DNA of 64,000 nucleotides from an uncultured Deferribacterales bacterium (lineage in GTDB: Bacteria > Chrysiogenota > Deferribacteres > Deferribacterales > Mucispirillaceae), in the NCBI GenBank assembly GCA_947853665.1, contig CANTXF010000066.1, positions 1 to 64,000 of the forward strand. Reading direction: 5' to 3'. The notes beneath the pieces were generated by a model. The model had not been told where the DNA came from, did not search any database, and was given only the letters and a program-made list of their open reading frames with translations. The first letter of the stretch is position 1, and each line of letters starts with the position of its first letter. The position numbers were made by a program, and so were the translations under genes. Below are positions 6,430-64,000 of this stretch, piece after piece.

Positions 6430-6460
6430 CGGCTTATATGAAAATAAACAGGATAAAAGG

Positions 6461-6492: not shown

Positions 6493-6499
6493 GTTAAAA

Positions 6500-7105: not shown

Positions 7106-7106
7106 G

Positions 7107-8498: not shown

Positions 8499-8626
8499 TA
8501 TATATAAACCTCTTTAAATATGGTTCGGATAAGATAATATTATAACACTCCCTTGTAAAGAGCTTTGTATGCCGCAGGAAAGCGTCCGGAACGCGCCGGG
8601 CGGCAAAAAATACATAAAATTTCCTC

Positions 8627-8655
8627 TTGATTTTTTCGCGCAAAGTTGCAATATT
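8627..8655 (+). promoter_or_regulatory. Sigma-70 promoter of groESL
   Basis: -35 TTGATT (8627-8632), 17-base spacer and -10 AATATT (8650-8655). The expected start site falls within the CIRCE operator. Confidence 0.6.
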
Positions 8656-8680
8656 AGCACTCGTTAGATATGAGTGCTAA
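8654..8680 (+). promoter_or_regulatory. CIRCE operator (HrcA binding site)
   Basis: Perfect TTAGCACTC-N9-GAGTGCTAA inverted repeat between promoter and groES. This is the canonical HrcA operator, so groESL should be repressed by HrcA and induced by heat. hrcA is not in the window. Confidence 0.97.
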
Positions 8681-8709
8681 TAAAACATATATACAGGAGG
8701 CTCATCAAC

Positions 8710-9000
8710 ATGGCAAAAATTCAACCGCTTCAGGACAGAGTGATAGTCAAACGCTTTGAAAGCGAAGAAAAAACCGCGTCCGGCATAATCATACCGGACA
8801 CCGCCAAGGAAAAACCCCAGGAAGGCGAAGTTATCGCCGTGGGCGAAGGCAAGTTTCTCGATAACGGCAGCCGCCTTAAACCCACGGTAAAAGCCGGAGA
8901 CAAAATACTTTTCGGCAAATACGCCGGCACCGAGGTAAAGCTCGACGGCGTGGAATACCTTATCATGCGCGAAGACGATATACTCGGCATAATCAAGTAA
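8710..9000 (+). CDS. groES: Co-chaperonin GroES
   Basis: 96 residues from ATG 8710, 11 bases after AGGAGG. The frame is open to an upstream codon at 8674, but that falls inside the CIRCE operator. The 10-kDa lid of the GroEL chamber is recognised from [14 protein letters not shown], the mobile-loop segment [18 protein letters not shown] and the C-terminal REDDILGII. It is cotranscribed with groEL. Confidence 0.98.
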
Positions 9001-9032
9001 GTTTTTTATAAAAATATTCTAAGGAGACATAA

Positions 9033-10679
<1,647 letters not shown>

Positions 10680-11115: not shown

Positions 11116-11943
11116 ATGAACAAAACAATAGGATTCGGAAGTTTTATAGAGTTTGCTGTAAAGGAAATTCTCAGAAATAACTCAAACTACAACGTAGAAG
11201 ACAGCGAGATAAAAGACAAAGAAAGACAGATCGATTTTACTGTAACCGCTCCCGGATTCGACAAGAAACCCACAAGCATAGGAATTCAGGTGGTGCATTA
11301 TAACCAGATAAATATTAATAACGCCTGCGACGAAGGCGAAAGAGAGCGCCTGCTGTCCTATAAAGATAATTTCGAGCAAAAGAAAAGGAAATTTTTTAAC
11401 GGCAGGCGGGAAATACTTCAGAATGTCAGCAAAGCCCTTTATCTGGAAATAGACCTTACCATAACCGAAGGGGACGAAAGGCCCCACGCGGAGCTGCTGA
11501 AATATGTCATGAAAAATATCGAAGCGGCCATAGACCATACGATAAATTCAAAAAAAGTGATCATCAACTACCGCGTTTCCATCTATAAAATAGAGGAAAT
11601 GGATTTCCTGCCGGACGTACACCCGGTTTTCAGCGCGCCCGATAACGACGGCAAAAGCGGCGCCCTCCTGACCGGCTACATTATCAGAAGAGGCGGAAAA
11701 AACGTTACCGGGCTGTCTAACCCTATCATCGTAAGGGAGGAATCCGGCGAAACACTGGTGGGGTTCATGAGAGAACCGTATATCAGCAGAAACGATATTT
11801 CCGAAATATTGAACCTGCTCAATAATTCCGAAGCGGACGAACGCAACCACCTGTCGGAGCCGATAAAGGTAACATTCCAGCGCCAGGCCAATATTAAATC
11901 CCCGGAAAAAGGCGATATTGCGATGATATGCTCGCTGGGATAG
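11116..11943 (+). CDS. Orphan protein of unknown function, possibly a degenerate nuclease fold
   Basis: 275 residues from ATG 11116; AAGGAG lies 10 bases upstream, while an in-frame GTG at 11092 precedes that site. Not recognised. It has no signal peptide or membrane segment. The N-terminal third contains DKERQIDF and, about 15 residues later, SIGIQVVHYNQ, which recalls the Asp...(E/Q)-x-(K/V) core of PD-(D/E)XK folds, without clear catalytic residues. The gene is AT-richer than groEL, is bracketed by element copies E and C and ends at a terminator, so it looks like accessory DNA. Confidence 0.7.
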   Translation: MNKTIGFGSFIEFAVKEILRNNSNYNVEDSEIKDKERQIDFTVTAPGFDKKPTSIGIQVVHYNQININNACDEGERERLLSYKDNFEQKKRKFFNGRREILQNVSKALYLEIDLTITEGDERPHAELLKYVMKNIEAAIDHTINSKKVIINYRVSIYKIEEMDFLPDVHPVFSAPDNDGKSGALLTGYIIRRGGKNVTGLSNPIIVREESGETLVGFMREPYISRNDISEILNLLNNSEADERNHLSEPIKVTFQRQANIKSPEKGDIAMICSLG

Positions 11944-11999
11944 TTTTTTCCGGACGGTATCTTAATTAAAATCTGTACATCATCTGCGGCCTAAACGAT

Positions 12000-12031
12000 A
12001 ACGGGGCGGGCTGTTTCCGCCCCGTTATTTT
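12000..12031 (+). terminator. Rho-independent terminator after the 11116 gene
   Basis: 10-bp stem AACGGGGCGG/CCGCCCCGTT with a 7-base loop, then ATTTT. It lies 56 bases after the stop. Confidence 0.85.
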
Positions 12032-12055
12032 GCAGCGAAAAAACCGCATCTATAT

Positions 12056-12265
12056 CCTTACATAAATTAAAGTAAGGTTATGGTAAATAATTATAATAAT
12101 GCTCTTTCAGACGTCAAAAGCATTCATAATAAGACCCCCGCGGCAAGGCAAACTAAGGAGCAAACCCTGAACACTGGGCTTTATGAGAACGCATCGGGTA
12201 AGATTATTCTTTGGCATGGGCAAGCCGCCGTATTATAAATATTTTTCATAACTATCTATGTTAGG
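12056..12265 (-). repeat. Dispersed inverted-repeat element, copy C
   Basis: About 210 bases. The left end is GGTTATGGTAAATAATTATA; the right end, on the minus strand, is GTTATGAAAAATATTTATAA, then TACGGCGGCTTGCCCA. The interior has the family core in reverse orientation (CAAGGCAAACTAAGG). With the preceding terminator it accounts for the 340-base gap. Confidence 0.8.
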
Positions 12266-12283
12266 GGACAGCCGCCAAAAAAA

Positions 12284-13036
12284 TTATAGAGCCTGTTTTC
12301 CCCGGCTTTTTATACGGGCCGCTACAAATGTCTCCGACCTGGCGGCTTCCGCCCGTATCCCGGCTTCGGGATGTTGGTTTTTTATACATGTCAGTATTTC
12401 CAGCGTCTTTGCCGACGGAAAAGCGGAAAGGCATCGAACCGCTCTACGGAAAACATTAAGGTTTTCCCGGCACTTTTCAAGCACGGCGTAAATTTTTTCC
12501 GCATTTTCCGGAGTGGCAAGCTCTTTATTATGAAAAACCATAAATCCGGCCGCGTCCAGAAGCTCCGGCAGCGCGGGTCCACTTCCCTCGCAAATAGCTT
12601 CCGTTATAACGGGCAGAGCGTCCGGATTCATTTTCCCGAGGATCCTTGCGATTATATCCCCGGGCAGCGGATAAGTCTTCTTTAATGAAACCTTCTCCCG
12701 ATGCTCGCCGTATCTGCCGCGGCCGGTCGTCCCCGCAAGGGGGATCAGCAGACGGGCCGTTTCCGCCCCGCACTTTTCGAGAGTCCGGCAGATTTCAAGC
12801 CTTGTATAAAGAGCTTTTTCCGTTTTCAGCATACCGGCAAGACGCAGGGCAAGGGAGCTGTCCCCGGCAGCGTCTGCCGCAAGCAGCCTTACAGCCGCCG
12901 AGCGCTCCGGCGCCGAGCCGGATTTTAACGCCGCTTCCAGCTCCCCTCTCGAGCGCTCTTTAAGGGAAGCGATATCCTCAAAGCCATACATACCGCGCCT
13001 GCGCAGGCTCTCCGACGTACTTTTCATTCTGGACAT
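12284..13036 (-). CDS. HEAT-like alpha-helical repeat protein
   Basis: About 250 residues, with ATG 13036 preferred; an in-frame TTG at 13072 is also possible. Repeating helical pairs such as RSAAVRLLAADAAGDSSLAL and RLEICRTLEKCGAETARLL resemble HEAT/armadillo repeats, which generally act as protein-binding scaffolds. There is no signal peptide or catalytic motif. It is divergent from the DUF4272 gene, with the shared 104-base gap holding both promoters. Function unknown. Confidence 0.7.
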   Translation of the reverse strand: MSRMKSTSESLRRRGMYGFEDIASLKERSRGELEAALKSGSAPERSAAVRLLAADAAGDSSLALRLAGMLKTEKALYTRLEICRTLEKCGAETARLLIPLAGTTGRGRYGEHREKVSLKKTYPLPGDIIARILGKMNPDALPVITEAICEGSGPALPELLDAAGFMVFHNKELATPENAEKIYAVLEKCRENLNVFRRAVRCLSAFPSAKTLEILTCIKNQHPEAGIRAEAARSETFVAARIKSRGKQAL

Positions 13037-13140
13037 ACCATTATCCGTAGTCCTTCCCGTCTGAAATATCAAGAAATATTTACCGCTTTATCTTTAAATG
13101 CCCATAGGCTAAAATAGAATTATTACAGAAGGAGAGGCCC

Positions 13141-13812
13141 ATGGACGAACGGGAGAAAAGAAAAGAGCGTTCTTTAAAGATAATCAGGGAGCGCGGCGTG
13201 CCGTTTATGGAAAAGCTGCCGGCGATAGAGACGGCGGAAGAAATAAGTCCGAGAAGCGCGGAGGAAATAGCCCGCAGAGCGGCAGCATGCCTGTGCGCCA
13301 TACAGGTAGCCTGCGATCTAAACTCCGGAGACGACCCGGAAGGCTCCCGCCGCTTTTTTAAAGGCGTGCTGGAAAAATACGGCGTGGAAAACGAACTTAC
13401 CGAAAAAGAAAAAGCCGTGTTCTACGGGAATCCGGAAAAGCAGGATATTATAAATATGATATGGAAATACGAAGCCTACTGGGTTTTGCTCTGGGCGCTG
13501 GGAATAGTAGACGGGCTAAATTATCCCGACTCAATATGCGACTGCGATTTTGCCGTACGCGCGCTTTCGGACAGCGACGGCATGGAAGATTTTATGAAAA
13601 AGATAAAACTGAAGAATATAAACGAAATTCTTGATGAAGCGGACCTTATCTTCCGCTACGACTGGGCCTGCGTGGACGCCAGGCTTAAAGGGCTGGCAGC
13701 TCCGGCGGGGCTTCATCCGGGGGTGGTGTTCGAAAGGCACTGGGGCCTTAACTGGCTTATCAGCAAAAACTCCGCGAATAACGACTGGGACTCGGTTTCG
13801 ACAGACACGTAA
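13141..13812 (+). CDS. DUF4272 family protein
   Basis: 223 residues. The start RKERSLKIIRERGVPF, the middle YEAYWVLLWALGIV and the C-terminal DWACVDARLKG...V.ERHWGLNWL are the conserved blocks of DUF4272, a cytosolic family of unknown biochemical role often found singly or near toxin-immunity genes. AAGGAGAGG precedes the ATG. A -10-like TAAAAT lies in the short gap shared with the divergent HEAT-like gene. Confidence 0.85.
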   Translation: MDEREKRKERSLKIIRERGVPFMEKLPAIETAEEISPRSAEEIARRAAACLCAIQVACDLNSGDDPEGSRRFFKGVLEKYGVENELTEKEKAVFYGNPEKQDIINMIWKYEAYWVLLWALGIVDGLNYPDSICDCDFAVRALSDSDGMEDFMKKIKLKNINEILDEADLIFRYDWACVDARLKGLAAPAGLHPGVVFERHWGLNWLISKNSANNDWDSVSTDT

Positions 13813-13861
13813 TTTACGCCGGGCTTTTTCGGAAATATTGAATAAGAAGTACGGCGTGCGG

Positions 13862-15046
13862 TTATTTATCCGGGCCGTTAATATCCGGCATGACGACGGC
13901 GGAGACCAGTTTAAAGAGCCACGGGTAAAGTATGGCGGTAGCCATAGCCGCAAGCAGTATGGCGGACGATTCCCCGCGGGATATTATGCCCGCCTCGTAG
14001 CATATGGACGAAACGGCCACAAGCATGGTAAGGGGAAAGGAAAGGCCCAGGGCCACAAGTATTATCTTCTGCTTTTTAATGGTCGAGAAAAAAAGCGCCA
14101 GACCGCCCGCGGCCCTCGTAAGGAACATAACCCCCGTTATTATCAGCGCAAGTATCACCACCGAAGGCTGGGTCAGATCCGAAAAAGAAACTTTCATGCC
14201 GACGGATATAAAAAATATCGGTATGAAAAAGCCGTACCCGACGCCGCCCAGCTTTTCAAGGACGGCCTCCCGCCCGGCAAAAACGAGGGCGAAAAGCATT
14301 CCGCCTATAAACGCCCCCACCACCGGCTCTATCTGAACGGCAGAAGCAAGGGCGACAAAAAAGAAGAGTATTACGAAATTGGCCCTTATGCCCGTTTCCG
14401 TGGGGTTGCCTACCAGCAGGAAAAGGGACTGGAGGCTGGGGTTCCACCAGAGGGCCATTTTCATTATCCTCATTATAAGATATATCACTATAAAAAAGCC
14501 TACGATATAGGCCGTATGCAGCAGGCTCTGCACCGTAAAGCCGTATTTATACGTCATCGTTACGACGGTTATGCCTATAAGCGTAAGTATCTCGCCCATC
14601 ATGGCTATTATCAGCAGGTTCTGGCCGAAGTCGGTTTTCATAAGGTCCGCGTCTTTAAGTACGGGAAAAAGAAGGCCCAGACCGGTGGTAAAAAACACCA
14701 GCGTAAACGACCAGTGCAGCTCCATATAAGTGGTAGCAAAAAGCGAAGCCATGCCGACCACGGCGAACATACATAGATAAAGCCATAAATCCCTGCGGGG
14801 CATAAGGCGGAATCTGTCGAAATTAAGCTCCAGGCCGGCAAGATACATAAGCACCAGAAAGCCGAAAGCGGAAAAATACTCCACAAGGCGCATAGGCTCG
14901 CCGTTTACGTCGAAAAAAGCGCCTATCAGCATGCCGAAGATTATCTCCCCCACGGAAGAGGGCAAAAGGAGCCTCCTGCTTATAAATGGCATAAAAAAAG
15001 CCCCAAGGCTCATCAGCATAAGGACGACGGCTTCAGTTTCAGTCAT
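13862..15046 (-). CDS. CPA2-type cation:proton antiporter, membrane subunit
   Basis: 394 residues from ATG 15046, overlapping the stop of the upstream RCK gene by 8 bases (ATGACTGA). About 12 hydrophobic segments match the Kef/CPA2 Na+(K+)/H+ exchanger fold, including LPSSVGEIIFGMLIGAF, the MYLAGLELNFDRF helix, PVVGAFIGGMLFAL and FFIPIFFISVGMKV. It has no C-terminal RCK domain of its own; the overlapping gene supplies it. The pair probably exchanges K+ or Na+ for H+ at the inner membrane. Confidence 0.9.
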   Translation of the reverse strand: MTETEAVVLMLMSLGAFFMPFISRRLLLPSSVGEIIFGMLIGAFFDVNGEPMRLVEYFSAFGFLVLMYLAGLELNFDRFRLMPRRDLWLYLCMFAVVGMASLFATTYMELHWSFTLVFFTTGLGLLFPVLKDADLMKTDFGQNLLIIAMMGEILTLIGITVVTMTYKYGFTVQSLLHTAYIVGFFIVIYLIMRIMKMALWWNPSLQSLFLLVGNPTETGIRANFVILFFFVALASAVQIEPVVGAFIGGMLFALVFAGREAVLEKLGGVGYGFFIPIFFISVGMKVSFSDLTQPSVVILALIITGVMFLTRAAGGLALFFSTIKKQKIILVALGLSFPLTMLVAVSSICYEAGIISRGESSAILLAAMATAILYPWLFKLVSAVVMPDINGPDK

Positions 15047-16457
15047 TTCCGTTCTCGTCGGGCAGCACAAGCACGCTTACCCCGCTTCTTGCCGCAAGCA
15101 GATAGGGCACGTGGGGGCTAAGCACGGATATGGGCTCTCCGGAATCGGAAGATACAACAAGCAGCATATCCCTTTTGCCGTTTATAAGGTTCAGCGTCTC
15201 GCGAACCGGGTTGCCCTCCAGAAGGGAGTAATTTACCTTGCTTCTGTTAAGGTTTTCAAAATCGGTGATAAGGTTCTGGCGCGCTTTTATATCCTCCTCG
15301 TCCGTCTTTGTTTTCAGCGCGCCGGGCGGCGTAACGAAAACCACCCGGAATGGCACGCCGAAAAGAGCGGCGATTTCCGAGCCAACTTCAAGAAGCCTGT
15401 CAGGTATGTGCCCGTTGAAAGATATGAGGATTTCCGAATAAGGGTAAACGCCGCGGCATATAAGGAAAGGGCTTGAGGCCCGTTTAAAAAAATACCTCAT
15501 ACGGACGTTGAATATGGAAAACCTATCCATACCGGAAAGAGCCAGAACGCCGGTATCCTTAAGGTAGGCCGCTCCGCGGAAATATTTAAGGTCTCCGCCG
15601 CGCTTGCAGCCGTACTCCTCCAGCTCTTTTATTTCTTCAAGAGGAGGATGCTTTACGTTATCCACCTGGTAATAAAGGAATTTGCGCGCTCTCGTCTTTA
15701 CGCTGAAGCTGTGGAGCTCAAAAATATCCCTGCCGTCCAGCATATCCGCCAGCACGGCGAAGGTCTGGCCGTACTGCAGGGGAAACTCCGGAGTGCCCTT
15801 CATCAGAATGTTTACGATATTTTCTATGACCTTGGGGTCGCCTATAAGCAGGGCCCTGTCGCCGATCTGCAGCTTGAAATCTCCGTCGGGGATTATTAGC
15901 CTGCCGTCCCTGTAAGCTGCGGCCACCTTCCAGCGGCTGGGCTGGAGGTAGCGCATTTTCCTGTCCACTATATGGGAGCGGCGCAGTATGGACACCTCCA
16001 CCACTTCCCCCTGGCCAAGTCCTATGTTGGACGGCTTGGAATAGTTTTTATCGACAAGGCCCTCCACAGCCTCAACGCCTATGGCCATAGGGTTAAGAAC
16101 TTTGGCCCCGTATTTCTCGAACTCGGCCGGGGCCTGTTCGTGCCGGTACCACAATATTATAAGGGGAACGTCCAGATCGTAAACTTCCCTTGTAATGCGG
16201 CAGATCTCAAGAACCACATCGTAATCCTGCACGGAGGAAACGATATGCGATATATCGGCGGTGTTTATTTTTTTCCACGTGACAATGCTGGATGCCTCGC
16301 CCTCAACTGTTTCTATGTTGGGGGCTTCGTCCCGGAAGCGGTCCAGCAGCGCGCCGTCCGCGTCCACCACTATACAGCTGCGCGTCCTTGAGAGGGAACG
16401 CAGCAGCTCCCGCTGAAAAAACCCCAAACCGAACACCAGTATCTTTTTACCCTGCAT
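15039..16457 (-). CDS. RCK (TrkA-N/TrkA-C) and USP-like regulatory subunit of the antiporter
   Basis: 472 residues. Residues 1-130 are an RCK_N Rossmann domain (KKILVFGLGFFQREL nucleotide loop, VVDAD at the end of strand 2). Residues 140-225 are RCK_C-like (VSILRRSHIVDRKM, LQIGDRALLIGD). The last 140 residues resemble a universal stress protein domain (ILISFNGHIPDRLLEVG...MLLVVSSDSGEP). It probably gates the overlapping antiporter in response to NAD(H) or another nucleotide. A strong promoter lies at 16493-16521. Confidence 0.85.
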   Translation of the reverse strand: MQGKKILVFGLGFFQRELLRSLSRTRSCIVVDADGALLDRFRDEAPNIETVEGEASSIVTWKKINTADISHIVSSVQDYDVVLEICRITREVYDLDVPLIILWYRHEQAPAEFEKYGAKVLNPMAIGVEAVEGLVDKNYSKPSNIGLGQGEVVEVSILRRSHIVDRKMRYLQPSRWKVAAAYRDGRLIIPDGDFKLQIGDRALLIGDPKVIENIVNILMKGTPEFPLQYGQTFAVLADMLDGRDIFELHSFSVKTRARKFLYYQVDNVKHPPLEEIKELEEYGCKRGGDLKYFRGAAYLKDTGVLALSGMDRFSIFNVRMRYFFKRASSPFLICRGVYPYSEILISFNGHIPDRLLEVGSEIAALFGVPFRVVFVTPPGALKTKTDEEDIKARQNLITDFENLNRSKVNYSLLEGNPVRETLNLINGKRDMLLVVSSDSGEPISVLSPHVPYLLAARSGVSVLVLPDENGND

Positions 16458-50158: not shown

Positions 50159-53100
50159 ATGCGTATAACATTCAATATGCAGGCCAACAAATATATGAGC
50201 AGTATCGGAAACAGCCTTTCGGCCATATCCGAAGCCCAGGACAGAGTGAACCTGAAGCGCAACCTGCTGAATCCGGAGGACAACGCCTCCGCATATATCG
50301 CGGCGTACAGCGTTCAGCGCATGATAGACGACCTGAAACAGTTTACGGTAAACGGGGAAAACGCCTCAAAATGGCTTACCGATGCGGATAACGCATTACA
50401 GGAAGCCATGGAGCTTATATCCCAGGCCAAAAACGATTACGCCGTCGGAGGAAACTCCGACTCCAACAACGCCGAAAGCCGGGCCGCCATGGCGGAAAAG
50501 GTTCTGGAAATATACGACACCCTTATGGACATAGCCAACTCCACGTCTATGGGGCAGTATCTTTTCAGCGGCTTCGCAACGGGCACAAAGCCTTTCCAGA
50601 GCGGCGGCAACCAGGTATCGGCCGTTACCTCCCTTTCACGCAACGGGGGAGAGGTCTCCTCAAAGTCGGTTTTCAGCGACCTGCCGGAGCTTAAAAGCGG
50701 CAAATACACAGCCAAAATAACGGTAAAAAACGGCATCGGCACTCTGACCCTGATAGACGATTCCGGCAATAAAATGATCCTAGATTCCAACGGTTCAGAC
50801 GAATCCGGCACGAAAGGCAACGGCTCCTCCAACGAGCTTACTTTCGAATACAAACCGGGGGCGGTAATAAACACGGGGCGCGGAATATCCATAACGCTCC
50901 CCGATTCGGAAGAATCCTCCGTCAATCTCCAGTTTACCTATAAAGCCGGTTCCGAGATGAATTACGCCGGGGACATGGGCTCCATACTGGCGCAGATCGG
51001 CTATAATCAGGACGTAGCCATAAACGTGCCCGGCGGAAATATTTTTACCCAGTCCTACAAAACGCTGACTGGCACCAAACTGAACACGGTAAACGGGCTT
51101 GCCGCCACCCTGTCCAGCTATTTCAGCCAGCTTGACAAAGCAAATTCCAATATAGGCGATTCCATAAAGATCTCCGGCACGGACCACATGGGAAACCCTG
51201 TGGGCGCGGCGAAAGTCCTTTCACCGATAAATCCGGACCTTAACCTTTCAAACGCGTCGGAAAAAGAGCGCACCCTTATGGTGGGCTACGGCGATAAAAT
51301 GTATAAGATAGTAGTGCCCCAAGGGGCCTACGCGACGGCGGACGACCTGGCGGCGGCAATAAACAACCAGCTTAAATATGCCGAATACGTGGGCAATATA
51401 AACGTGCCCGAAGCCGGCTACGACGATATGGACCACTACTCATCAGCCGTTATGAACCAGATTAAAAACGGAGCCTTCGAAGGGGAGCTTACGGAAGCGG
51501 ACAGGCAGAAATACTCCGTGGACCTTTCCGGGGAAATAAAAGTCGGCACCGACGGGGACAGGCTCCAGTTTGTAACGTCCAAAACCGGAGACAACGTGCG
51601 CATGACGGTTTCCGGCCTTGATCAGAATATGCTGGGCTTTAAAAACATGACGGCCGGGGGCGAGGGCAAGGACACCACCTTCGAAATAGGCTACGAGTTC
51701 CATAAAGAGGGGGTAAACCAGATAAAAACCACCCATTCGGATATGGACCTCAGCGGAACCAACTATACCTTTTTCATAAACGGCACCATGATAAGCCTCA
51801 ACAAGCCCGCGACGGTAATAACAAACAATGAACTTCAGAACCAGACGTTTCCCACGGGAGCGGGAGACCCGGACTATGTGATCAATATAAACGGCAAGGA
51901 AATAACCGTCCCCGCCAAAAATTTCGACGGCACGGACACGGGAGCCCTCGCAGCCATAAACGAAGCCATAGAAGCGGCCGGGCTGGGAGCGGACGCGCGG
52001 GTAACGAGAGTGGATACGGCGCAGGGAGAGCTTGATTACGATACGGCTTCTCCCTCCGCAAAAGAGATAGAGTTCGAGCTGGATAAGGCGATAAAGGCGG
52101 CCGGGCTGGGGTTTTCCTTCGGAGCAAGCGTTACCCAGGCTGCCCCTCCCGCGGCCCTGGGCACATACGACGTTTCCTTTACCATGAGCAACAACAATAT
52201 AGACAGGGACACCCAGCTAAGCACGTCCTTCTACGACACTACAACCGTGCCCCCTTCCTCCAGCATGGAATCCTACACTCCGGACAGGTTCGGCACGAAC
52301 GTGGCAAAAGAGCATACGCTGAACGACCTTGCGGACTTTATAAAGGAGCTTTACGACGATTCCGTATCGGTAACCATGGATGGGGGCAAGCTGGTGATAA
52401 AGGACCTGCGCAGCGGCTCCAGCAAGCTGAACGTAAACATAAACGGCCTTAACCAGGGCATAAGCCATCCTACCGACCAGTCTACGGTAATGGGCGGCAA
52501 ATACGTCGGCACCAAGGACGACGAGTGGCAGGTGAAGGTAATATCCACCCTCACGAACTCCGGCCAGAGGGACGTTCGCGTGGTAATAAGGGATTCCTCC
52601 GGCACGGAAATATACAACCAGCTTACGGAAAACTATCTGGGCGGGGAAATAAAGCTCCCCTACGGAGTGACCATAACGCCTAACACCATGGGCATACCAA
52701 ACCCGGCCGACCCCACGCTTAAGGAAAAAATTTCCGAATTTGACATAACCCTTACGGCTAAAGGCAACGTGGGCTTCGGAGATATGAACGTTACAGAGGA
52801 CGGAAAAAACGTAAATATCTTCCGCTCCCTCCAGAACCTGGCCAACGCCCTTAAATATAATATCACGAAAAACGGCTTCTCGGAGCCTTCCGCCTGGAAG
52901 GACGAAAGCCTTTCATCCACTGCCAGCCCTTATTTCGACGGAACGTTTAAAGGCACCTTTAACGACCAGTGGAAATTTGAAATAGAGCAGTACAACGGCA
53001 AAAACGATATTTTTCTGCAGAACGAGTACACGCAGAGCTCCGGGGAAATAAAATACGAGCAGAGCCTTATAGATAAGCTGGGGAGCGAAATATCCTTCGG

Positions 53101-54511
53101 CGTGGATTTATACGACAACGTAACGGGCGATTCCTCCAGAGTGGACGTAAAAATCGACTTTTCAAAGGCAAAGCCCCCCGTGACGGACTCGGCCTCCGCT
53201 CAGGAATACATACTTAAAGAGCTGAACTCCAACGAGGAGCTTATAAAGCAAGGCGCGCGCTTTGTGGCTTCGGACGGAAAAATAGTGATGCAGTCCGGCT
53301 CCGGCACCAAAATAGCCACCTTCGCAAACACCGCCACGGGAGGCGCAAGGGCCCTTACGGCCTCCGTAATGGGCTTCGACGCGGTATCTAACGGCAAGCT
53401 GGGAGAATTTCCCATGACTATGGCCGCGGACGCCGTAATACATATTTCAGACCCGGGAGCGGCTAACGACCCGGTAGCTTCCCCGGCTTACCCCTTAAGG
53501 GACATTACCATACCCGCCGGAACATACGACACCCCGGAGGACCTTCTCGCCGCCGTAAACGCGGAGCTTGCAAAAGCGGAGCCGGACGGCGCATCGGGCA
53601 GGATAACGGCGGTCCTCGACGCTTCCGGCGGCATACAGTTTAAAAATCAGGACGGCACCTATGTGGAAACCACTGTGGACGCCGGAGCCGCCAACCCTCT
53701 CAACATCGCCCTCGAAACAGGCCCCGGCGGACGGGCGGACGTATTCGCCCCGGCGGCCCAGAAGCCGAAAACGGACCTCAGCGAAGCGGGAGAGGAAGCA
53801 AGGACGCTGAAATTCACATATACGGAAGGCACGCCGCCCCAGGAAAAAACGGCAATAATAACCCTCGACAAAAAATCCTACGGCTCTACCGAGGAAATAG
53901 CCCTTGCCATAAACGAAAAACTGGCGGCCCAGGGTATAGCATCCGCCGATATGAAAGCGGTGGTGGGAAGCGACGGCAAACTGACATTCGCCGGAAGCAG
54001 CGGCAATATATCCAACATGACCGTGCAGGGCGACGCGGACGCCACATTAGGCTTTACTAAAGCCGGAGACGAGGCAAAAATAAAAATTACCGGCAGCGAC
54101 GGCTCTCTTGTGCAGGAAGTTACCCTTTCCACGGCAAACCAGACCGTTCATGTTTCGGACGGCCTTTATCTGGGCTTCGACAAAGGCACTCTTAAAGCCA
54201 CCGATTCCTTTACCGGGGCTGTCGGAAGCGGCATAGAAAACGAAATAGGCGTTCTGGACCAGGCAGAAAAGCAGATACTCGAGGCCGTTACTCTCGTGGG
54301 CAACAGGGGCTCCCGTGTCGAAAGCGTGGCAAAGTTTCAGGAGACCCTGACCACCTCCGCCGAAAACACGAAGGCCCAATACCTTGGCTCCACGGACCTG
54401 GACCAGATAAAGGCGGCCACCGACCTGCAAATGGCAAAAACCGCCTACGAATCCGCCCTTGCGGCGGCCAGCACGATTTTATCAATCTCTCTGCTGGATT
54501 TCTTGAATTAA
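50159..54511 (+). CDS. flgL: Giant hook-filament junction protein FlgL (hook-associated protein 3)
   Basis: 1450 residues, three to four times the usual FlgL. The N-terminal 140 residues (MRITFNMQANKYMSSIGNSL ... MDIANSTSMGQYLFSGF) and the last 90 (GNRGSRVESVAKFQ ... ILSISLLDFLN) are the conserved D0/D1 coiled coil. About 1200 residues of beta-rich, Thr/Gly/Asp-rich sequence between them form an expanded surface region. This includes flagellin 'hook IN'-like modules, for example around residues 360-410 (SNASEKERTLMV...ATADDLAAAINNQL) and 1205-1260 (SEAGEEARTLKF...STEEIALAINEKL). fliW and csrA follow directly. Confidence 0.9.
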   Translation: MRITFNMQANKYMSSIGNSLSAISEAQDRVNLKRNLLNPEDNASAYIAAYSVQRMIDDLKQFTVNGENASKWLTDADNALQEAMELISQAKNDYAVGGNSDSNNAESRAAMAEKVLEIYDTLMDIANSTSMGQYLFSGFATGTKPFQSGGNQVSAVTSLSRNGGEVSSKSVFSDLPELKSGKYTAKITVKNGIGTLTLIDDSGNKMILDSNGSDESGTKGNGSSNELTFEYKPGAVINTGRGISITLPDSEESSVNLQFTYKAGSEMNYAGDMGSILAQIGYNQDVAINVPGGNIFTQSYKTLTGTKLNTVNGLAATLSSYFSQLDKANSNIGDSIKISGTDHMGNPVGAAKVLSPINPDLNLSNASEKERTLMVGYGDKMYKIVVPQGAYATADDLAAAINNQLKYAEYVGNINVPEAGYDDMDHYSSAVMNQIKNGAFEGELTEADRQKYSVDLSGEIKVGTDGDRLQFVTSKTGDNVRMTVSGLDQNMLGFKNMTAGGEGKDTTFEIGYEFHKEGVNQIKTTHSDMDLSGTNYTFFINGTMISLNKPATVITNNELQNQTFPTGAGDPDYVININGKEITVPAKNFDGTDTGALAAINEAIEAAGLGADARVTRVDTAQGELDYDTASPSAKEIEFELDKAIKAAGLGFSFGASVTQAAPPAALGTYDVSFTMSNNNIDRDTQLSTSFYDTTTVPPSSSMESYTPDRFGTNVAKEHTLNDLADFIKELYDDSVSVTMDGGKLVIKDLRSGSSKLNVNINGLNQGISHPTDQSTVMGGKYVGTKDDEWQVKVISTLTNSGQRDVRVVIRDSSGTEIYNQLTENYLGGEIKLPYGVTITPNTMGIPNPADPTLKEKISEFDITLTAKGNVGFGDMNVTEDGKNVNIFRSLQNLANALKYNITKNGFSEPSAWKDESLSSTASPYFDGTFKGTFNDQWKFEIEQYNGKNDIFLQNEYTQSSGEIKYEQSLIDKLGSEISFGVDLYDNVTGDSSRVDVKIDFSKAKPPVTDSASAQEYILKELNSNEELIKQGARFVASDGKIVMQSGSGTKIATFANTATGGARALTASVMGFDAVSNGKLGEFPMTMAADAVIHISDPGAANDPVASPAYPLRDITIPAGTYDTPEDLLAAVNAELAKAEPDGASGRITAVLDASGGIQFKNQDGTYVETTVDAGAANPLNIALETGPGGRADVFAPAAQKPKTDLSEAGEEARTLKFTYTEGTPPQEKTAIITLDKKSYGSTEEIALAINEKLAAQGIASADMKAVVGSDGKLTFAGSSGNISNMTVQGDADATLGFTKAGDEAKIKITGSDGSLVQEVTLSTANQTVHVSDGLYLGFDKGTLKATDSFTGAVGSGIENEIGVLDQAEKQILEAVTLVGNRGSRVESVAKFQETLTTSAENTKAQYLGSTDLDQIKAATDLQMAKTAYESALAAASTILSISLLDFLN

Positions 54512-56828: not shown

Positions 56829-57347
56829 TTAAAGATCGGAAACCTTTTCTTCAAATAAGCGTTCTTTCATTAAAAATCTTCCATCCTTTTCCATACATTT
56901 AGTTTTTAATGCGGCTTCACCTCTATATATAATATTAGGGCATCTGCCTTTACCGGAAATTATCCGCACATGGAGTTTTTTATAATTATTAAGTAAACCT
57001 TTCAACTGTTCTATCGTACTTAGCATTTGCTCGATAGCTTTTTTTATATCGCGGCCGCCTTTAAGCTCTATAAGGCAGGCAGTGTTTTTTTGGCACATAA
57101 AAAGCCCGTAGTCGCATCTTTTTAAACCGTCACTGCCATATAAGCCGCCGTCAATTTTTACTTTTGAGATGCAATCTCCCATATCGTTCTTTAGGCGGTA
57201 TTCCAGGTTATTTTCCTTGCATAATATTTCACTGCTATGCAAAACCGGAAAATCTTTTATACGCTCTCCCGGAAAACTGCCCGCCCTATGCCAGCATTTT
57301 CTGCTTCCGATAAGGCATTCTGTTTCTTTTTTCTTATCGGGCATCAT
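56829..57347 (-). CDS. Small PD-(D/E)XK-like partner of an SMC-like ATPase
   Basis: 172 residues, start overlapping the ATPase gene by 14 bases. The middle reads KVKIDGGLYG...RCDYGLF, then NTACLIELKGGRDIKKAIEQM: Asp, then Glu-x-Lys and a following Lys/Gln helix, the layout of a PD-(D/E)XK nuclease core. It has many Cys and Lys. No known family was recognised. With the ATPase it forms a two-gene cassette of AT-richer sequence, and a nuclease effector in phage defence is the best inference. Confidence 0.65.
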   Translation of the reverse strand: MMPDKKKETECLIGSRKCWHRAGSFPGERIKDFPVLHSSEILCKENNLEYRLKNDMGDCISKVKIDGGLYGSDGLKRCDYGLFMCQKNTACLIELKGGRDIKKAIEQMLSTIEQLKGLLNNYKKLHVRIISGKGRCPNIIYRGEAALKTKCMEKDGRFLMKERLFEEKVSDL

Positions 57348-58635
57348 ATTTTATTTCCAAAAGTCTATCGTATTCGCTTCTTATGGTTTCAGAAACTTCG
57401 TCTATTGCCTCCGCCTTTATCATATTAAGCTCATAGTCGAAAATATCTTTCACCTTACCATCATTTAAGAAATATGCGGAAACCTTTTCTTCCGGCAGCC
57501 AAAAAGCCCTGTCGATGATTTTATCGGTTTTTGTAGCGTCCACTTTTCCGGAAATATTTCCTGCAATTAAATTATTTATGGACGTCAATATATACGGGCT
57601 GTGGGTGGTAATCATTATCTGGCTGTTGTTTACATAATTTTTAAATAAAACCAGCAGCTTAACTATATTATACTGCGCTTCCGGGAATAAATGGGCTTCA
57701 GGCTCTTCAAATATTGCAAAGGCGCTTTGTCTTTCAATAATAAGCACATATACCATTGCCAATATCCATAAGGACTCCTGCTGGCCGGAAGATGATACTG
57801 ATAATTTGGTATATTTATTTCCGCTGTGGTATATTCTTTCCTCGCCGTCTGATTGCTTATACTCGCCGTTAAGAACGCTTTTTATCAGATTTCTGGCTTT
57901 TGCGGCAATGGCACGGTCGGGAGCGCGGTTTATTTGTCTGAAAGTTCTTTCCGCTGCTTCAAGCCCTCCGCTTACCTGGGAGCTTATCCTTTGAATAGCT
58001 TTTAAAAAATCCTCCGTGATAAAATCGGGAAGCGTAATATTTTTAACAATCTGCCCTGAAAGGAGAGTTAAAAGCGAGCGGCCGGCAGGAACGAATACGG
58101 GAGTATTTTTAGAATTAAAGATTTTTGACGCTTCATCATAAAAAGATTTTCGCTCGAATTCATCAAAATCTTTTATTTTAGCACTTAAAAAGCTTATATG
58201 TTTTTCACTGTTTTTTTCATATCCATTTACTCTGAGCAGCAAATGCAGGACTTCATCCCGCGTAGTCCTGTCAAATCTGATATTTATGTAAGATTTATAG
58301 TCATCTTTTCCCGGTCTCTGAGAAATCCCTACCCACCTGTCTTCCGACTCGTTAAAATAATACGTTATCTCCATAAAAGGCTCATGAAATACCGGGCCAA
58401 AAAGAGCGATAAATTTACTTTTAAGATATTTATTGAATTCCCTTATAATATATTGTTCCCGTATATTTTCATCTTTATAACCGGCGATCCATAAGGGTAT
58501 GGATTTAAAAAAATACACCAGCTTTGCGATAGTGCTTTTTCCGCTGGCCTGCCTGCCTATCAATATGGTAAAATCGTTTAAATTAATATCGCATCTTTCT
58601 ATGGGGCCAAAATTTTCTATAGAAAGTTTTGCCAT
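57334..58635 (-). CDS. SMC/RecF-like AAA ATPase (AAA_15/AAA_21 type), candidate defence sensor
   Basis: 433 residues; AAGGAGG precedes the ATG. The N-terminus KLSIENFGPIERCDINLNDF leads into Walker A IGRQASGKST. The ABC signature is SVSSSGQQESLW, Walker B FAIFEEPEAHLFPEAQ and the switch His lies in ITTHSPYILTSINN. There is no TOPRIM domain, so it is not OLD. The architecture is that of ATPases in Septu, PARIS, AbiL-like and retron systems, which sense phage and release a partner. Its partner is the overlapping nuclease-like gene. Element copy D lies directly upstream. Confidence 0.85.
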   Translation of the reverse strand: MAKLSIENFGPIERCDINLNDFTILIGRQASGKSTIAKLVYFFKSIPLWIAGYKDENIREQYIIREFNKYLKSKFIALFGPVFHEPFMEITYYFNESEDRWVGISQRPGKDDYKSYINIRFDRTTRDEVLHLLLRVNGYEKNSEKHISFLSAKIKDFDEFERKSFYDEASKIFNSKNTPVFVPAGRSLLTLLSGQIVKNITLPDFITEDFLKAIQRISSQVSGGLEAAERTFRQINRAPDRAIAAKARNLIKSVLNGEYKQSDGEERIYHSGNKYTKLSVSSSGQQESLWILAMVYVLIIERQSAFAIFEEPEAHLFPEAQYNIVKLLVLFKNYVNNSQIMITTHSPYILTSINNLIAGNISGKVDATKTDKIIDRAFWLPEEKVSAYFLNDGKVKDIFDYELNMIKAEAIDEVSETIRSEYDRLLEIKYDAR

Positions 58636-58921: not shown

Positions 58922-60058
58922 TTACTGATTTATAAGCCTTTTTACCTTTTCCATTTTCTCAAGGTATTTTTTAACGTATTCGGGGGTTTTTCCGTTTATG
59001 CGGGCCATTTCCTCCTCCGTAACGAAGCGGCCTCCCGCAAGGGTAAAGCCTTTCCCGTTATAAAAGGATTTAAAGGGCAGCCCGTCCTTATCAGGCTCAA
59101 GAACCCGGTCCACCTCCCTTTCCAGCATAAAGCGGCGGTCGTTTCCGTGGCAGGCCGTGCACAGCGGGGTTTCCCGCCTTACTGTATGGGGTGTAAAGAC
59201 CTTCCACCGGGCCGCTAGGGGCCTGTTCTCCATACCGACCACAAGGTTCTTGTAAATATCCGTGGCGAACATTATAAAGGACGGCTTTATGGGAGCGTAT
59301 TTTCCGGAGGTTCCGTCCACTGCCAGAGGGGGCCTTTCGTTGACACGCATAAAGCTGCTTTTCAGATACTCCGGCGAAAGCTCCCTTATCCCGTCGAAAT
59401 ACTGCCTGTAAGAGCTTTCCCGCGTGCGTATGTAAAAAGTGCCCAGCTCCATAGGCGCCCAGGCTGCGTGGCATGAAACGCACTCCAGCTTATCGTGGCC
59501 TTTTATGCCGTGGTCGGTAACGCTTTTATCGTATTTGTGGCAGGACAGGCAGTCTTTTGCTTTTTCCGCGCCCATTATATTTTTCATGGAATGGCAGTCG
59601 CCGCAGGTCATGCCTTTTTCATAATGGACGTCGGGGAGCATTTTCATATAGTTTTCTCCCATAAATTCCGGCCCTCTGCGGTAGCGTTCGTGGTCCTCCC
59701 TGATACCCATGCCGGCGTATTCCGCCCCGGTAAAAACGTCCCGGTGGCATTTAAGGCAATCGTTTACGGAGGGCTTTGCGGGCCTGCCGTTATTTTCACT
59801 GTGGCAGTCTGAACAGGAAGAAACGTGGCAGCCGGAGCAGTTTTTTTCAGAAAAATCCCCGTCGAACATACCGGCGCTTGAAGCGATAAATGCCTTCTCA
59901 GCGCTTTTTGAAGCCATAACGGATTCAAGAGCCTTTTCATACCCTGCGTGGCAGGAAAGGCAGTCGGCCCCGGAAGCGCATTTTACCCCGTTTCCCGCAG
60001 CAAGTGCAAGGCTAGCGAAGGAGAGGCTTATGAATATTATCGTTAAGAATTTTATCAT
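58922..60058 (-). CDS. Octaheme c-type cytochrome, periplasmic
   Basis: 378 residues with a signal peptide (IKFLTIIFISLSFASLALAA) and eight CXXCH motifs (CLSCH, CSGCH, CSDCH, CLKCH, CGDCH, CLSCH, CVSCH, CTACH). The last heme is separated from the others by a 115-residue heme-free segment, and 90 more residues follow it. RBS GGGGAG. Its start overlaps the 12-heme gene by 47 bases. Together with it, the porin and the rhodanese gene, it likely conducts electrons across the periplasm or outer membrane. Confidence 0.9.
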   Translation of the reverse strand: MIKFLTIIFISLSFASLALAAGNGVKCASGADCLSCHAGYEKALESVMASKSAEKAFIASSAGMFDGDFSEKNCSGCHVSSCSDCHSENNGRPAKPSVNDCLKCHRDVFTGAEYAGMGIREDHERYRRGPEFMGENYMKMLPDVHYEKGMTCGDCHSMKNIMGAEKAKDCLSCHKYDKSVTDHGIKGHDKLECVSCHAAWAPMELGTFYIRTRESSYRQYFDGIRELSPEYLKSSFMRVNERPPLAVDGTSGKYAPIKPSFIMFATDIYKNLVVGMENRPLAARWKVFTPHTVRRETPLCTACHGNDRRFMLEREVDRVLEPDKDGLPFKSFYNGKGFTLAGGRFVTEEEMARINGKTPEYVKKYLEKMEKVKRLINQ

Positions 60059-61871
60059 AATCTATCTCCCCGCCGTAATACCTGCGCTCGCCCTTATCGT
60101 GGCATACTATGCATTTGTTGGCGTTTATCATATTTGTTATCTCTTTTCCGGAAAGGACGCGGGAGCCTTCCCTCACCACGTCGGACGATACGTTCAGAGA
60201 GCCGTTGTCCATATAATATAAGGGCAGCAGGGGAACGTCGCACCCGTCGCATATTATGGGGGCAGTAAAAAGGCCGTATTTTTCGGAAAAAAGGCCGTCC
60301 CCGAAGCCGTAAAACATGGGGTCGGAATGGCAGCCGGAGCAGGAAACGGCTTTTTCTCCCACATTATGGCCGAAAAAGGGCGCGAATTTCAGCTTTTTCG
60401 CCCCCCTGAATTCCAGAACGAAACCCTCTTTAACCTTCTCCCCTTTACCGTCTATATGGGTGAGAAAGGTCTGGCAGCCGGGAGTGGCGGGTGTAATCCG
60501 GCCTTTCTGGTCCACAGCGAGGGGAAAGGGATAAAAAGTGCGCAGATCTTCCGTTTCCGTAAAAAGGCCCGGCGTGTCCTCATTTTTGACATAATCGCGC
60601 ATGGTTTCGCGTTCATCGTATTCCACGTGGCAGCCGTAGCACTGGATAACCGCGGAGGAATGGCAGGTATGGCAGGCAAGGCGGCCGTGGCCCTTTATAT
60701 CGTGCTCCTGGGTGCCAGTTATTATTTTTACGGGGCGTTCCCTGCCGGAGCGTTTGCCAGCAAGGTAATAAGCGCCGTCCCTTTTATAGACGTTTGAATA
60801 CATGCGCCCCTTGTCCGTAAGCACCATTTCATCCCCGAAGGAAACGGGGTTTTTATAATTTCTGCTTTCAAGGAGGGCTGGCATATTCTCCCTGTCCACT
60901 ACGGCGGTTTCAGGCGGTTTGGACGGGCTGCCGTGGCAGCTTTCGCAGGATATTTCAAGCTGGTCGTACATATTTTCGTAGTAATAGCCGTCGCCCATTA
61001 TTTCGGACGAGGTATGGCAGTCTATGCACTCCATACCCCGAAGAAAATGAATATCCGCCTTCATGTGGCGCAGATTGCGGACGCCGCTCGTAAGAAGGGG
61101 CCCTGGCAGAGCGTCCTTAGTGGGCACAAGGGAATTGTTGCCGTCGTAAAGGCCCTCGTAGGAAAGAGCTATGCGGCCGCTTCTGTTATGGCACACGGCG
61201 CATACCCGGTTGGGCGGCAGCTTTTCCATCCTGTGGCTGGCGGCGTAGCCCTCCCGCCCCTTTATGGCGGCGTCTACTCCTTCGTATTCCCCAAATTCCC
61301 CGGCGGGGAAATGGCAGGCGGAGCAGCCGTCCGAATGGGCGCCTTTATAGCCCATATCCGCAGGGCTTCCAATATGGCAGGCGGAGCAGAATTTACGGTA
61401 CATATCGGCGGATATTTTATCCGTATCTGCCACGTTTTCTATGCGGAAGGGCTTTCCGCCCGCGTCTCTGGGGCCGGGCGGCGGCAGAGGGGCGTAAAGG
61501 CTTCCCGTTTCCTCGCCCCATGCGGCGAGGGTGTTTTTTATTATGCCCGTATTAGTAAGCATAATCGTGGAAGCGGCCCTTTTTACCTGATATTCGTGGC
61601 AGGTTCCGCAGGTTTTTTCCCAATGGGCTGGGGAAGCCGGGTTTTTGCCCCCGGTCATGCCCTTATGGGCCTCCTCCGCGGAAAGGGCTTTGCCGTCTCC
61701 CCCGTGGCAGTCCTCGCAGGCCATAAGGTGGTTTTCTGAAACCTCCTCTATGCCCTCGTGGCAGGAAACGCAGGAAGACACGGCTTCATCCGCCGTAAAA
61801 AAGCGGACTCCCATGAACAAAATAAATGAAATGAAAATTAAAAGAATAAAAACGGTTAAAGCGTTCTTCAT
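60012..61871 (-). CDS. Dodecaheme c-type cytochrome
   Basis: 619 residues. One N-terminal hydrophobic segment (TVFILLIFISFILFMGV) acts as signal anchor or signal peptide. Twelve CXXCH motifs are spread from residue about 35 to 600, in pairs, with a heme-poor block near 420-520; an extra CDGCD lacks the His. No lipobox is seen. Spacing and neighbours (porin and small periplasmic protein upstream, 8-heme cytochrome downstream) suggest part of a trans-envelope electron conduit. Confidence 0.9.
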   Translation of the reverse strand: MKNALTVFILLIFISFILFMGVRFFTADEAVSSCVSCHEGIEEVSENHLMACEDCHGGDGKALSAEEAHKGMTGGKNPASPAHWEKTCGTCHEYQVKRAASTIMLTNTGIIKNTLAAWGEETGSLYAPLPPPGPRDAGGKPFRIENVADTDKISADMYRKFCSACHIGSPADMGYKGAHSDGCSACHFPAGEFGEYEGVDAAIKGREGYAASHRMEKLPPNRVCAVCHNRSGRIALSYEGLYDGNNSLVPTKDALPGPLLTSGVRNLRHMKADIHFLRGMECIDCHTSSEIMGDGYYYENMYDQLEISCESCHGSPSKPPETAVVDRENMPALLESRNYKNPVSFGDEMVLTDKGRMYSNVYKRDGAYYLAGKRSGRERPVKIITGTQEHDIKGHGRLACHTCHSSAVIQCYGCHVEYDERETMRDYVKNEDTPGLFTETEDLRTFYPFPLAVDQKGRITPATPGCQTFLTHIDGKGEKVKEGFVLEFRGAKKLKFAPFFGHNVGEKAVSCSGCHSDPMFYGFGDGLFSEKYGLFTAPIICDGCDVPLLPLYYMDNGSLNVSSDVVREGSRVLSGKEITNMINANKCIVCHDKGERRYYGGEIDYDKILNDNIHKPLLR

Positions 61872-61951
61872 CCGGGTAAAAATGAAGGCGTATATCCCTG
61901 CCGGCCTACGGCCCGGCCGGGAGCTCCGCCAGACGGAAGCTGAAAAAATAA

Positions 61952-61978
61952 TTGCCGGAGGGGGCCGGCCTCCGGCAA
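61952..61978 (-). terminator. Rho-independent terminator after the 69-residue protein gene
   Basis: Minus-strand 10-bp stem TTGCCGGAGG/CCTCCGGCAA with a 7-base loop, followed by TTATTTTTTC. It lies between the small gene and the cytochromes, so it may be an attenuator that lowers cytochrome expression relative to the porin and small protein. Confidence 0.8.
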
Positions 61979-61983
61979 AATTT

Positions 61984-62193
61984 TTAGCAGCCCTGCATCA
62001 TGGGTTTTTTGGCTTTTTTAGCGCCTTTTTCAGCGTCTACGCTTACGCTGTCACCGGCTTTAAGGTCGTTGCCTTTAAGTTCGATAGTGACTTTGTCGCC
62101 GTCAACGCTGATAACTTCGCCTTTTTTAGCGGCCGCGAAAGCGAAAGTAGCTGCCATGAGCATAGCTACAACCATTAAAAGAACCTTTTTCAT
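61984..62193 (-). CDS. Small secreted protein with C-terminal cysteine
   Basis: 69 residues: signal peptide KKVLLMVVAMLMAATFAFA, then a 48-residue mature protein, AKKGEVISVDGDKVTIELKG..LKAGDSVSVDAE, a small KOW/SH3-like beta barrel outline, and a Lys-rich end PMMQGC. GAGAGG precedes the ATG. It sits between the porin and the cytochrome genes, the place taken by the small periplasmic ExtJ in Geobacter ext clusters; homology to it is untested. Confidence 0.8.
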   Translation of the reverse strand: MKKVLLMVVAMLMAATFAFAAAKKGEVISVDGDKVTIELKGNDLKAGDSVSVDAEKGAKKAKKPMMQGC

Positions 62194-62243
62194 AATTCAC
62201 CTCTCTATTTTACGCGGAGGGGTCTGCCCTCCGCGTTATTAAA

Positions 62244-63443
62244 TCAAAATCTGAACTGAGTGTAAAGCTCGAACGTGTTAAAGTTCTGGAAGTTGGGGTC
62301 GTTTTTGTCTTCCTGGTCGAAAGCCGTGTTGGAATACTGGAAGGTTATTTTAATATTCTGCCCCTTTATGTAGTAGTTTGCGCCCACGCCCACGAAATTG
62401 ATTTTCTGGTCGTAGTACCACTGGTTGGAAGCGCTTTTCATAGCGGCGAAATTAAAATAATCGTACCTGGCGAATATCTGAAGCGGTATATTGGGCAGCA
62501 TGTAACCCAGCTTGCCGTAAACGCCTTCTTTCTGGCCGTTCTGCCCCATGGAGCCGACGGACGGGTCGTCGCCCAGATACGCGTCGTCAAAATTCATGTT
62601 TACGTATCCGGCGGAAGCCGTGATCGTACCGAAGGAGAAAGGCTGCTCATAGAATATATCGAAAGAGTAGGCCAGGTAATCCTTTTCGTCCCTTTCGCCG
62701 GCCACGTCTCCGTAAACCACGCCGGGCTCATACTGTACGGCCGCGCCTATGGTAAGAACGGTTTTGTTGCCGCGGTAAGTTCCCGCAACGCCGTATCCGG
62801 TTTCTTTATCCTCAAGGAGGGAAGCCTGGAGACGGGCGGTGTAGCGGAAGTTGGAGGAGCTGGCTTTAGCGTCCCCGCCTCTGCCGGATTTACCTTCCAT
62901 AACGTCTATACGATACTGGAGATAATCGTAGAGAAAATTACCCCACACTGCGACCCCTATATCCCGGCTGGTTTTATAAGGCGTGGCGATAAAGAGGGAC
63001 CTGTCGAGGGTAAGAGGCTCGAAGCAGCCTTCCAGGTTTTCCCTTGTAAGGTTGTGCTTAAACTTACCGAGGCGGAATTTCAGAAAGCTTAAAGGCTCGT
63101 AGCGTATCTGAGCGTCCAGTATATAGAAGTTCTGGTTATCCCCGTCCTGCGATACGGAAAGGGGGTTGATGATCCTGTTTTCTATATATTCCATCTGGAA
63201 ATAGAAGCTCAGAGCCTCGTTATAGGTGCCTATAAAGCCCAGCCTGTTCCTTCTGAAATTAAAGTTAAGGGAAGCCTGGTCGTTTTCCATGCCGCTTCCG
63301 GTATCCCTTGCGGTAAAACCGAACTGCGCGTCGTAAAATATTTTAAGATATTTGCCTTCGCCCAATTCTATGGGGTCGAACGCGAAAGCCTGGGCGGCGA
63401 AGGTCATAAAAGCCAATACGTATATCAATAAACGAAATTTCAT
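62244..63443 (-). CDS. Outer-membrane porin (phosphate-selective porin O/P-like)
   Basis: 399 residues: signal peptide ending AAQAFA, then alternating beta-strands with aromatic girdles and a terminal Phe (ELYTQFRF), the mark for BAM insertion. Segments such as LSFYFQMEYIENRI and FLKFRLGKFKHNLTRENLEG resemble the OprO/OprP-like porins found beside respiratory cytochromes. AAGGAGG precedes the ATG. It follows the rhodanese gene by 32 bases and may serve as anion channel or as sheath for a heme conduit. Confidence 0.88.
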   Translation of the reverse strand: MKFRLLIYVLAFMTFAAQAFAFDPIELGEGKYLKIFYDAQFGFTARDTGSGMENDQASLNFNFRRNRLGFIGTYNEALSFYFQMEYIENRIINPLSVSQDGDNQNFYILDAQIRYEPLSFLKFRLGKFKHNLTRENLEGCFEPLTLDRSLFIATPYKTSRDIGVAVWGNFLYDYLQYRIDVMEGKSGRGGDAKASSSNFRYTARLQASLLEDKETGYGVAGTYRGNKTVLTIGAAVQYEPGVVYGDVAGERDEKDYLAYSFDIFYEQPFSFGTITASAGYVNMNFDDAYLGDDPSVGSMGQNGQKEGVYGKLGYMLPNIPLQIFARYDYFNFAAMKSASNQWYYDQKINFVGVGANYYIKGQNIKITFQYSNTAFDQEDKNDPNFQNFNTFELYTQFRF

Positions 63444-63475
63444 CGTATCCTCCTTAGTTGTTTATCCGCCGGTTA

Positions 63476-64000
63476 TCAGCAGCCGGAAGGCGCGCCGCCG
63501 CCGGCCGCAGGATTATTAACCTCGCCGCCGGAAGAGGAGGCGTCTTTATTTTCCTGATATTCCTTATCGGCTTTATTTATCTCTCTGGCGTCGCCGGAGT
63601 AATCATTATCGAAAGCAAGAGTATCAGCCGGGCCGGTAACGTTAAGAGTGAGGTAATCCGTATAGCGGGAAGTATCGAAAGCGGCGTTTGTAAACTGGGT
63701 GTTTTTAAGCTGGTTTCCGTTCAGAGCCGCATTTGTAAGAGAATCAATATAGTTATTAATGGAAAAATCCCATGTCAGATACGAACTCTGCACGGCTCCG
63801 GTGCCCCTTGCAAAGGTTTCTGCGGCGCTGGAAGGAATAAACATCGCGAGGTTCCCCCACTCGTTCCAGGAACCGTCGTAAATAGCAGTATTGGCATATC
63901 CCAAGATTTCTTTAATAACGAAAAAATGAGGGGAAGTCGACTGACCGGCTCCGCAGTGTACTATTATACGTTTCATCTTATCAGCCGGAAGAAAATGAAC
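63476..64000 (-). CDS. Rhodanese-domain sulfurtransferase (5' end outside window)
   Basis: The frame is open through 64000, so the visible ATG 63976 is internal (preceding residues read HFLPADK). Active-site loop IIVHCGAGQSTSPH holds the catalytic Cys, and ILGYANTAIYDGSWNEWG is the conserved C-terminal rhodanese block. About 110 further residues follow, Asn/Thr/Asp-rich, ending in GGGAPSGC. It is first in the visible rhodanese-porin-small protein-cytochrome series, as extH is in Geobacter. Export of the protein cannot be judged without the missing N-terminus. Confidence 0.85.
   Translation of the reverse strand, partial: VHFLPADKMKRIIVHCGAGQSTSPHFFVIKEILGYANTAIYDGSWNEWGNLAMFIPSSAAETFARGTGAVQSSYLTWDFSINNYIDSLTNAALNGNQLKNTQFTNAAFDTSRYTDYLTLNVTGPADTLAFDNDYSGDAREINKADKEYQENKDASSSGGEVNNPAAGGGAPSGC

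Follow-up and report, generated by a model that had tools for sequence, protein, structure and literature searches.

The minus-strand genes at the end of the window, by which we mean the whole stretch of 64,000 nucleotides that was analysed (C66:1-64000), raise the question of which electron acceptor they serve, since they had been likened to extHIJKL of Geobacter sulfurreducens and extracellular metal reduction had been proposed for the organism. The host genome (G000) measures 2.43 Mb and is 97% complete, and the named relatives within its family are Mucispirillum MAGs. All five genes of the original prediction, a rhodanese, a porin, a small protein and two cytochromes, were found at the predicted positions on the minus strand, and the proposed homology to ext was borne out by the NCBIfam models, with scores far above chance. 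The genes code for an ExtN-like multiheme c-type cytochrome of 378 aa (58922..60058; NF040967, 413 bits against a cut-off of 200), the c-type cytochrome ExtM of 619 aa (60012..61871; NF040943, 887 against 800), the small exported protein ExtJ of 69 aa (61984..62193; NF040942, 64 against 52.5), the outer-membrane porin ExtI of 399 aa (62244..63443; NF040900, 481 against 150) and the rhodanese-like lipoprotein ExtH of 481 aa (63476..64921, cut by the window end at 64000; NF040901, 169 bits, below its cut-off of 200). CXXCH counts agree with the 12 hemes predicted for ExtM and the 8 predicted for ExtN. The parallel with extHIJKL held for I and J and, at a score just under the cut-off, probably for H, whereas the two cytochromes match the ExtM and ExtN profiles, scores that rule out their assignment to ExtK and ExtL. 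As the ExtKL model (NF040886) had no match in the host genome, we filed the cluster as a KL-less variant and not as extHIJKL proper. The model NF040968, named for the ExtO iron-sulfur subunit (416 positions), matches the ExtN cytochrome (58922-60058) as well as NF040967 does and leaves the Rieske protein unmatched, and is probably mislabelled. Elsewhere in the window, a stretch of lower GC (0.449) at 56829-58635 carries an AAA ATPase (PADLOC AriA, 128 bits; GajA/OLD-like) whose gene overlaps with one of 172 aa that belongs to no known family, possibly a defence pair, and at 50159-54511 a very large FlgL-like flagellar hook-associated protein (1450 aa) followed by a FliW-like gene were named by eye. 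Rfam gave no match within the window.

We read on to the end of the contig, keeping the numbering of the window. Past the window lies a second extH on the minus strand (65265-66599) and, beyond it, a plus-strand operon in the order MoA-MoB-MoC-ExtO-P-Q-S diverges from the minus-strand ext genes. This operon codes for the molybdopterin oxidoreductase MoA, of 839 aa and with a Tat signal (67107-69626), the 4Fe-4S protein MoB (69623-70435), MoC of cytochrome b561 type (70439-71131), the Rieske protein ExtO (71128-71505), the cytochrome b ExtP (71498-72115), ExtQ (about 72106-72522, with an uncertain start) and ExtS (72504-73289). The partners resembling extM-S that had been sought to the right of the window are thus represented by a bc-like OPQS module, in which ExtS exceeds its cut-off (222 against 100 bits), ExtO carries a Rieske domain, ExtQ was recovered by phmmer and ExtP was placed by synteny at 219 bits, below its cut-off of 290 as in all 51 genomes of the phylum. 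There is no divergent LysR gene upstream of extH, where the second extH and the divergent MoA gene are located; a minus-strand Rrf2 regulator gene (73252-73680) stands at the far end. Judged from sequence, it is near certain that the window genes are homologous to ext and belong to a cluster of the HIJMN plus OPQS kind.

AlphaFold predicted 16 strands both for the ExtI of the window and for that of a Desulfuromonadota-type relative, with pLDDT values of 78.6 and 77.7, respectively, the two models being built on one shared sequence set. The closest solved structures to the ExtI model in Foldseek were 16-strand porins, including the phosphate porins OprP and OprO as well as OmpF, and MtrB was not among the 50 best PDB matches; searching the PDB with the ExtI and ExtM sequences yielded nothing useful. 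On the predicted fold we rejected an MtrB-like sheath, and the models do not support the published estimate of '21 transmembrane' segments (PMC6148476). Nine basic residues on the strands are invariant and the long stretch behind strand 5 contains more of them, a pattern that fits an anion pore without proving it. In ExtH, the catalytic cysteine of the rhodanese was conserved in all 24 aligned sequences, and the copy at 63476-64921 combines a rhodanese domain with a plausible lipobox. The two host ExtH proteins are mutual closest relatives, as are those of Mucispirillum, and the duplication, or a gene conversion, must therefore have been separate in the two genera. Isolated extH-extI pairs, with the rest of the cluster not nearby, occur in L098 (genome G249; 11377-15097) and L100 (genome G294; 5569-9201), where ExtH is very long (831 and 801 aa, respectively), which suggests that ExtH and ExtI can work without the cytochromes. 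As to the latter, all 12 heme columns of ExtM are common to its relatives, and the alignment of heme columns showed that the 8-heme ExtN is without the two N-terminal hemes of the 10-heme ExtN.

Among enzymes of solved structure, MoA matched PsrA of Thermus thermophilus best, at 183 bits. In the tree, MoA forms its own clade with 100/100 support, whose members come from four Deferribacterota families and a Nitrospirota MAG; this clade is loosely sister to Psr/Phs, with no more than 85/90 support and a long branch (1.15 changes per column), and no enzyme with a known substrate is more than distantly related to it. The metal-ligand column holds cysteine in all MoA sequences, and a cysteine ligand is common to the Psr/Arr/Ttr group (PMC7331816). 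Since the PhsA model scored far below its cut-off (277 against 694 bits) and MoA is placed outside Psr/Phs, we rejected a plain thiosulfate or polysulfide reductase. MoC is b561/FdhI-like and not an anchor of NrfD type; PhsC of Salmonella is a b-type cytochrome as well, so that the type of MoC is not decisive against Phs. An identity with the 'uncharacterised reductase' AYGZv1_260003/4 induced in Mucispirillum schaedleri during colitis was unsupported, MoA of Mucispirillum G040 being 25% identical to DmsA compared with the 32-36% reported for that protein (PMC5285517). MoABC was found in nine of the ten Mucispirillum genomes searched. In two Mucispirillum genomes, MoABC copies without OPQS have as neighbours a dnaJ-like gene and small exported proteins in pairs (L076, 12122-12902; L086, 86-956). 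About 26 molybdopterin oxidoreductase genes exceed the Pfam cut-off in the host genome compared with 9 in G040, a repertoire that is unusually large for a gut-family genome of 2.4 Mb. MoABC appears to represent an undescribed molybdoenzyme family, and its link to ext was not found in the part of the literature covered, which does not prove that no description exists.

The distribution of these modules was compared by tblastn across 33 related clusters from a collection of one genome per species, many of them MAGs, and all counts are uncorrected for shared ancestry. ExtKL was present in 8 clusters and a molybdoenzyme in 15, with no cluster containing both; neither was within the sequence compared in the remaining 10, six of which have a molybdoenzyme of the same kind elsewhere in the genome. 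ExtKL exceeded its cut-off in none of the 51 Deferribacterota and Chrysiogenota genomes searched, whereas ExtI occurs in 21 of them. In clusters of Desulfuromonadota type, ExtKL is inserted between J and M. What adjoins OPQS or separates the two halves in other Deferribacterota is a molybdoenzyme of Psr type, accompanied by Fe-S and NrfD-like subunits, and G003, G207 and L049 share this arrangement. In 24 of 26 genomes, ExtP lies at most 13 kb from a molybdoenzyme, a figure likewise uncorrected for ancestry. Within families f2-f6, Psr of the ext type was detected in 13 of 13 genomes with ExtI and 2 of 11 without it (Fisher p=4e-5, uncorrected for relatedness); in the Mucispirillaceae, MoA accompanies ExtI in all five ExtI-bearing genomes, which is not significant alone. 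The ext-linked Psr enzymes, which score 484 bits against PsrA of T. thermophilus, fall at three places in the Psr tree and MoA in another clade, suggesting from the three lineages sampled that Psr was recruited repeatedly by ext clusters. The HIJMN and MoABC-OPQS modules are adjacent in the host genome, unlike in Mucispirillum, where ExtH2-MoABC-OPQS forms a separate locus that also occurs in species without ExtHIJMN and where MoABC alone is found in others. The divergent arrangement recurs in a Nitrospirota MAG (L062), whose MoABC, an orthologue at 810 bits, points away from extHIJMNOPQS.

We give about an even chance to the reading that the KL-less ext cluster and MoABC together carry out a porin-fed periplasmic respiration of chalcogen oxyanions or sulfane sulfur, such as selenite, tellurite, polysulfide or thiosulfate. 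ExtI would be an anion-selective porin that admits the oxyanion or sulfane-sulfur anion to the periplasm, where the ExtH lipoprotein with its intact active-site cysteine and the soluble second ExtH may bind or carry the chalcogen. Menaquinol would supply electrons to MoA, for molybdenum-dependent reduction, by way of MoC (b-type) and MoB (Fe-S protein). ExtO, ExtP and ExtQ (Rieske/cytochrome b) would draw further quinol electrons, which would run towards the outer membrane via ExtS, ExtN and ExtM; near that membrane a second step or the removal of a zero-valent product could take place. Energy would presumably be conserved, and the process would be respiration rather than detoxification. The extracellular metal reduction of the original prediction would instead require a conduit that delivers electrons outside the cell to solid acceptors such as Fe(III) or Mn(IV), a task to which the 20 hemes of ExtM plus ExtN could be suited. 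It is opposed by the predicted 16-strand solute porin, which as a barrel of OprP/OmpF type makes a classical extracellular wire unlikely, by the lack of an extracellular cytochrome in the cluster and by the absence of ExtKL. In addition, the G. sulfurreducens extI mutant reduces Fe(III) citrate normally and is defective on selenite and tellurite (PMC5877670), and deletion of extI or extHIJKL has little effect on Fe(III) (PMC5877670, PMC6148476), so that we regard such a conduit as improbable. The mutant phenotype, the parallel with the srr operon and the papers on porin and rhodanese genes led us to favour periplasmic respiration of chalcogen anions over extracellular metal reduction.

Whether the chalcogen would be selenium or sulfur is hard to separate at the level of genes. 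Rhodaneses typically handle sulfane sulfur, and guts hold far more sulfur anions than selenite, which counts for a sulfur respiration in which polysulfide, thiosulfate or tetrathionate, once taken up and bound with the help of porin and rhodanese, is reduced by the molybdoenzyme, the selenite and tellurite effects being side activities. In Deferrivibrio and Deferribacter, a porin and a rhodanese beside an operon annotated as Psr/Ttr have indeed been read as polysulfide uptake, with ext unmentioned (PMC11896075, PMC6896113), and the score of the ext-associated Psr against PsrA agrees with this. On the other hand, most psr-bearing Deferribacterota fail to reduce S0 (PMC6896113), the extI mutant phenotype concerns selenite and tellurite (PMC5877670), and MoA is outside the Psr/Phs clade; we rate a sulfur-based process as a serious but clearly less probable option. 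Slightly less credit still goes to the view that the ext module and MoABC-OPQS are merely neighbours and functionally independent, the latter serving another acceptor. The different loci in Mucispirillum and the occurrence of MoABC-OPQS without ExtHIJMN, or of MoABC alone, show that the modules are separable and count against porin-fed periplasmic respiration, as do the two termite-gut genomes with ExtI and neither molybdoenzyme and the distance of MoA from characterised enzymes. Independence is opposed by the co-occurrence of MoA with ExtI in the Mucispirillaceae, which alone is not significant, by the own ExtH in each module, by the same juxtaposition in the Nitrospirota MAG and by OPQS being part of the ext cluster in Geobacter.

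We know of no phenotype for any ext gene of Deferribacterota and, to the best of our knowledge, no terminal reductase has been established for the ext pathway. The mutual exclusion of ExtKL and molybdoenzymes offers a testable prediction on which subunit does the chemistry. We tentatively propose, while leaning slightly against it, that ext is not an electron conduit and may be a general porin-rhodanese-cytochrome platform for chalcogen respiration with an exchangeable catalytic unit, this being ExtKL in Desulfuromonadota, Psr acquired several times, and MoABC in gut Mucispirillaceae and the Nitrospirota MAG. Our comparison joins two literatures on the same genes, that on ext and selenite in Geobacter and that on porin, rhodanese and polysulfide in Deferribacterota, and places a possible chalcogen respiration in a family of vertebrate-gut bacteria that has been associated with inflammation.

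With regard to known systems, the cluster shares an outer-membrane barrel and multiheme cytochromes with the MtrCAB and Pcc conduits, but its barrel has 16 predicted strands compared with the 26 of MtrB, a large barrel with a cytochrome inside, and no extracellular multiheme lipoprotein is among its genes. The srrABCDEF operon of Bacillus selenitireducens, the only characterised respiratory selenite reductase operon, encodes a Psr-type catalytic subunit and rhodanese-domain proteins (PMC12481199). It resembles the host locus in bringing together a MopB catalytic subunit with a Cys ligand, an Fe-S subunit and proteins with rhodanese domains, and differs in having neither multiheme cytochromes nor a porin and in that MoA is outside the Psr clade, SrrA being compared by description only. 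The extHIJKLMNOPQS cluster of G. sulfurreducens (GSU2940-GSU2930) has homologues of H, I, J, M, N, O, P, Q and S, the same internal order of HIJMN and of OPQS and a 12-heme ExtM; in the host, by contrast, ExtKL (a five-heme cytochrome with a predicted selenocysteine; PMC5877670, PMC6148476) is absent, ExtN has 8 instead of 10 hemes, ExtH is present twice, OPQS follows MoABC on the other strand, and the divergent LysR gene found upstream of extH in most Desulfuromonadales clusters is missing. Psr-containing ext clusters of other Deferribacterota, e.g. that of a Seleniivibrio woodruffii MAG (L035 in G029), likewise combine ExtHIJMN, a molybdoenzyme and OPQS without ExtKL, but in place of the 839-aa MoA and b561-type anchor they have a PsrA-type enzyme of about 735 aa and, after it, an NrfD-like gene of 295 aa. 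The cluster of the Nitrospirota MAG UBA2233 (L062) has two OP sets and small rhodanese-like genes beside MoA, and shares with the host an orthologous MoABC divergent from the ext cluster.
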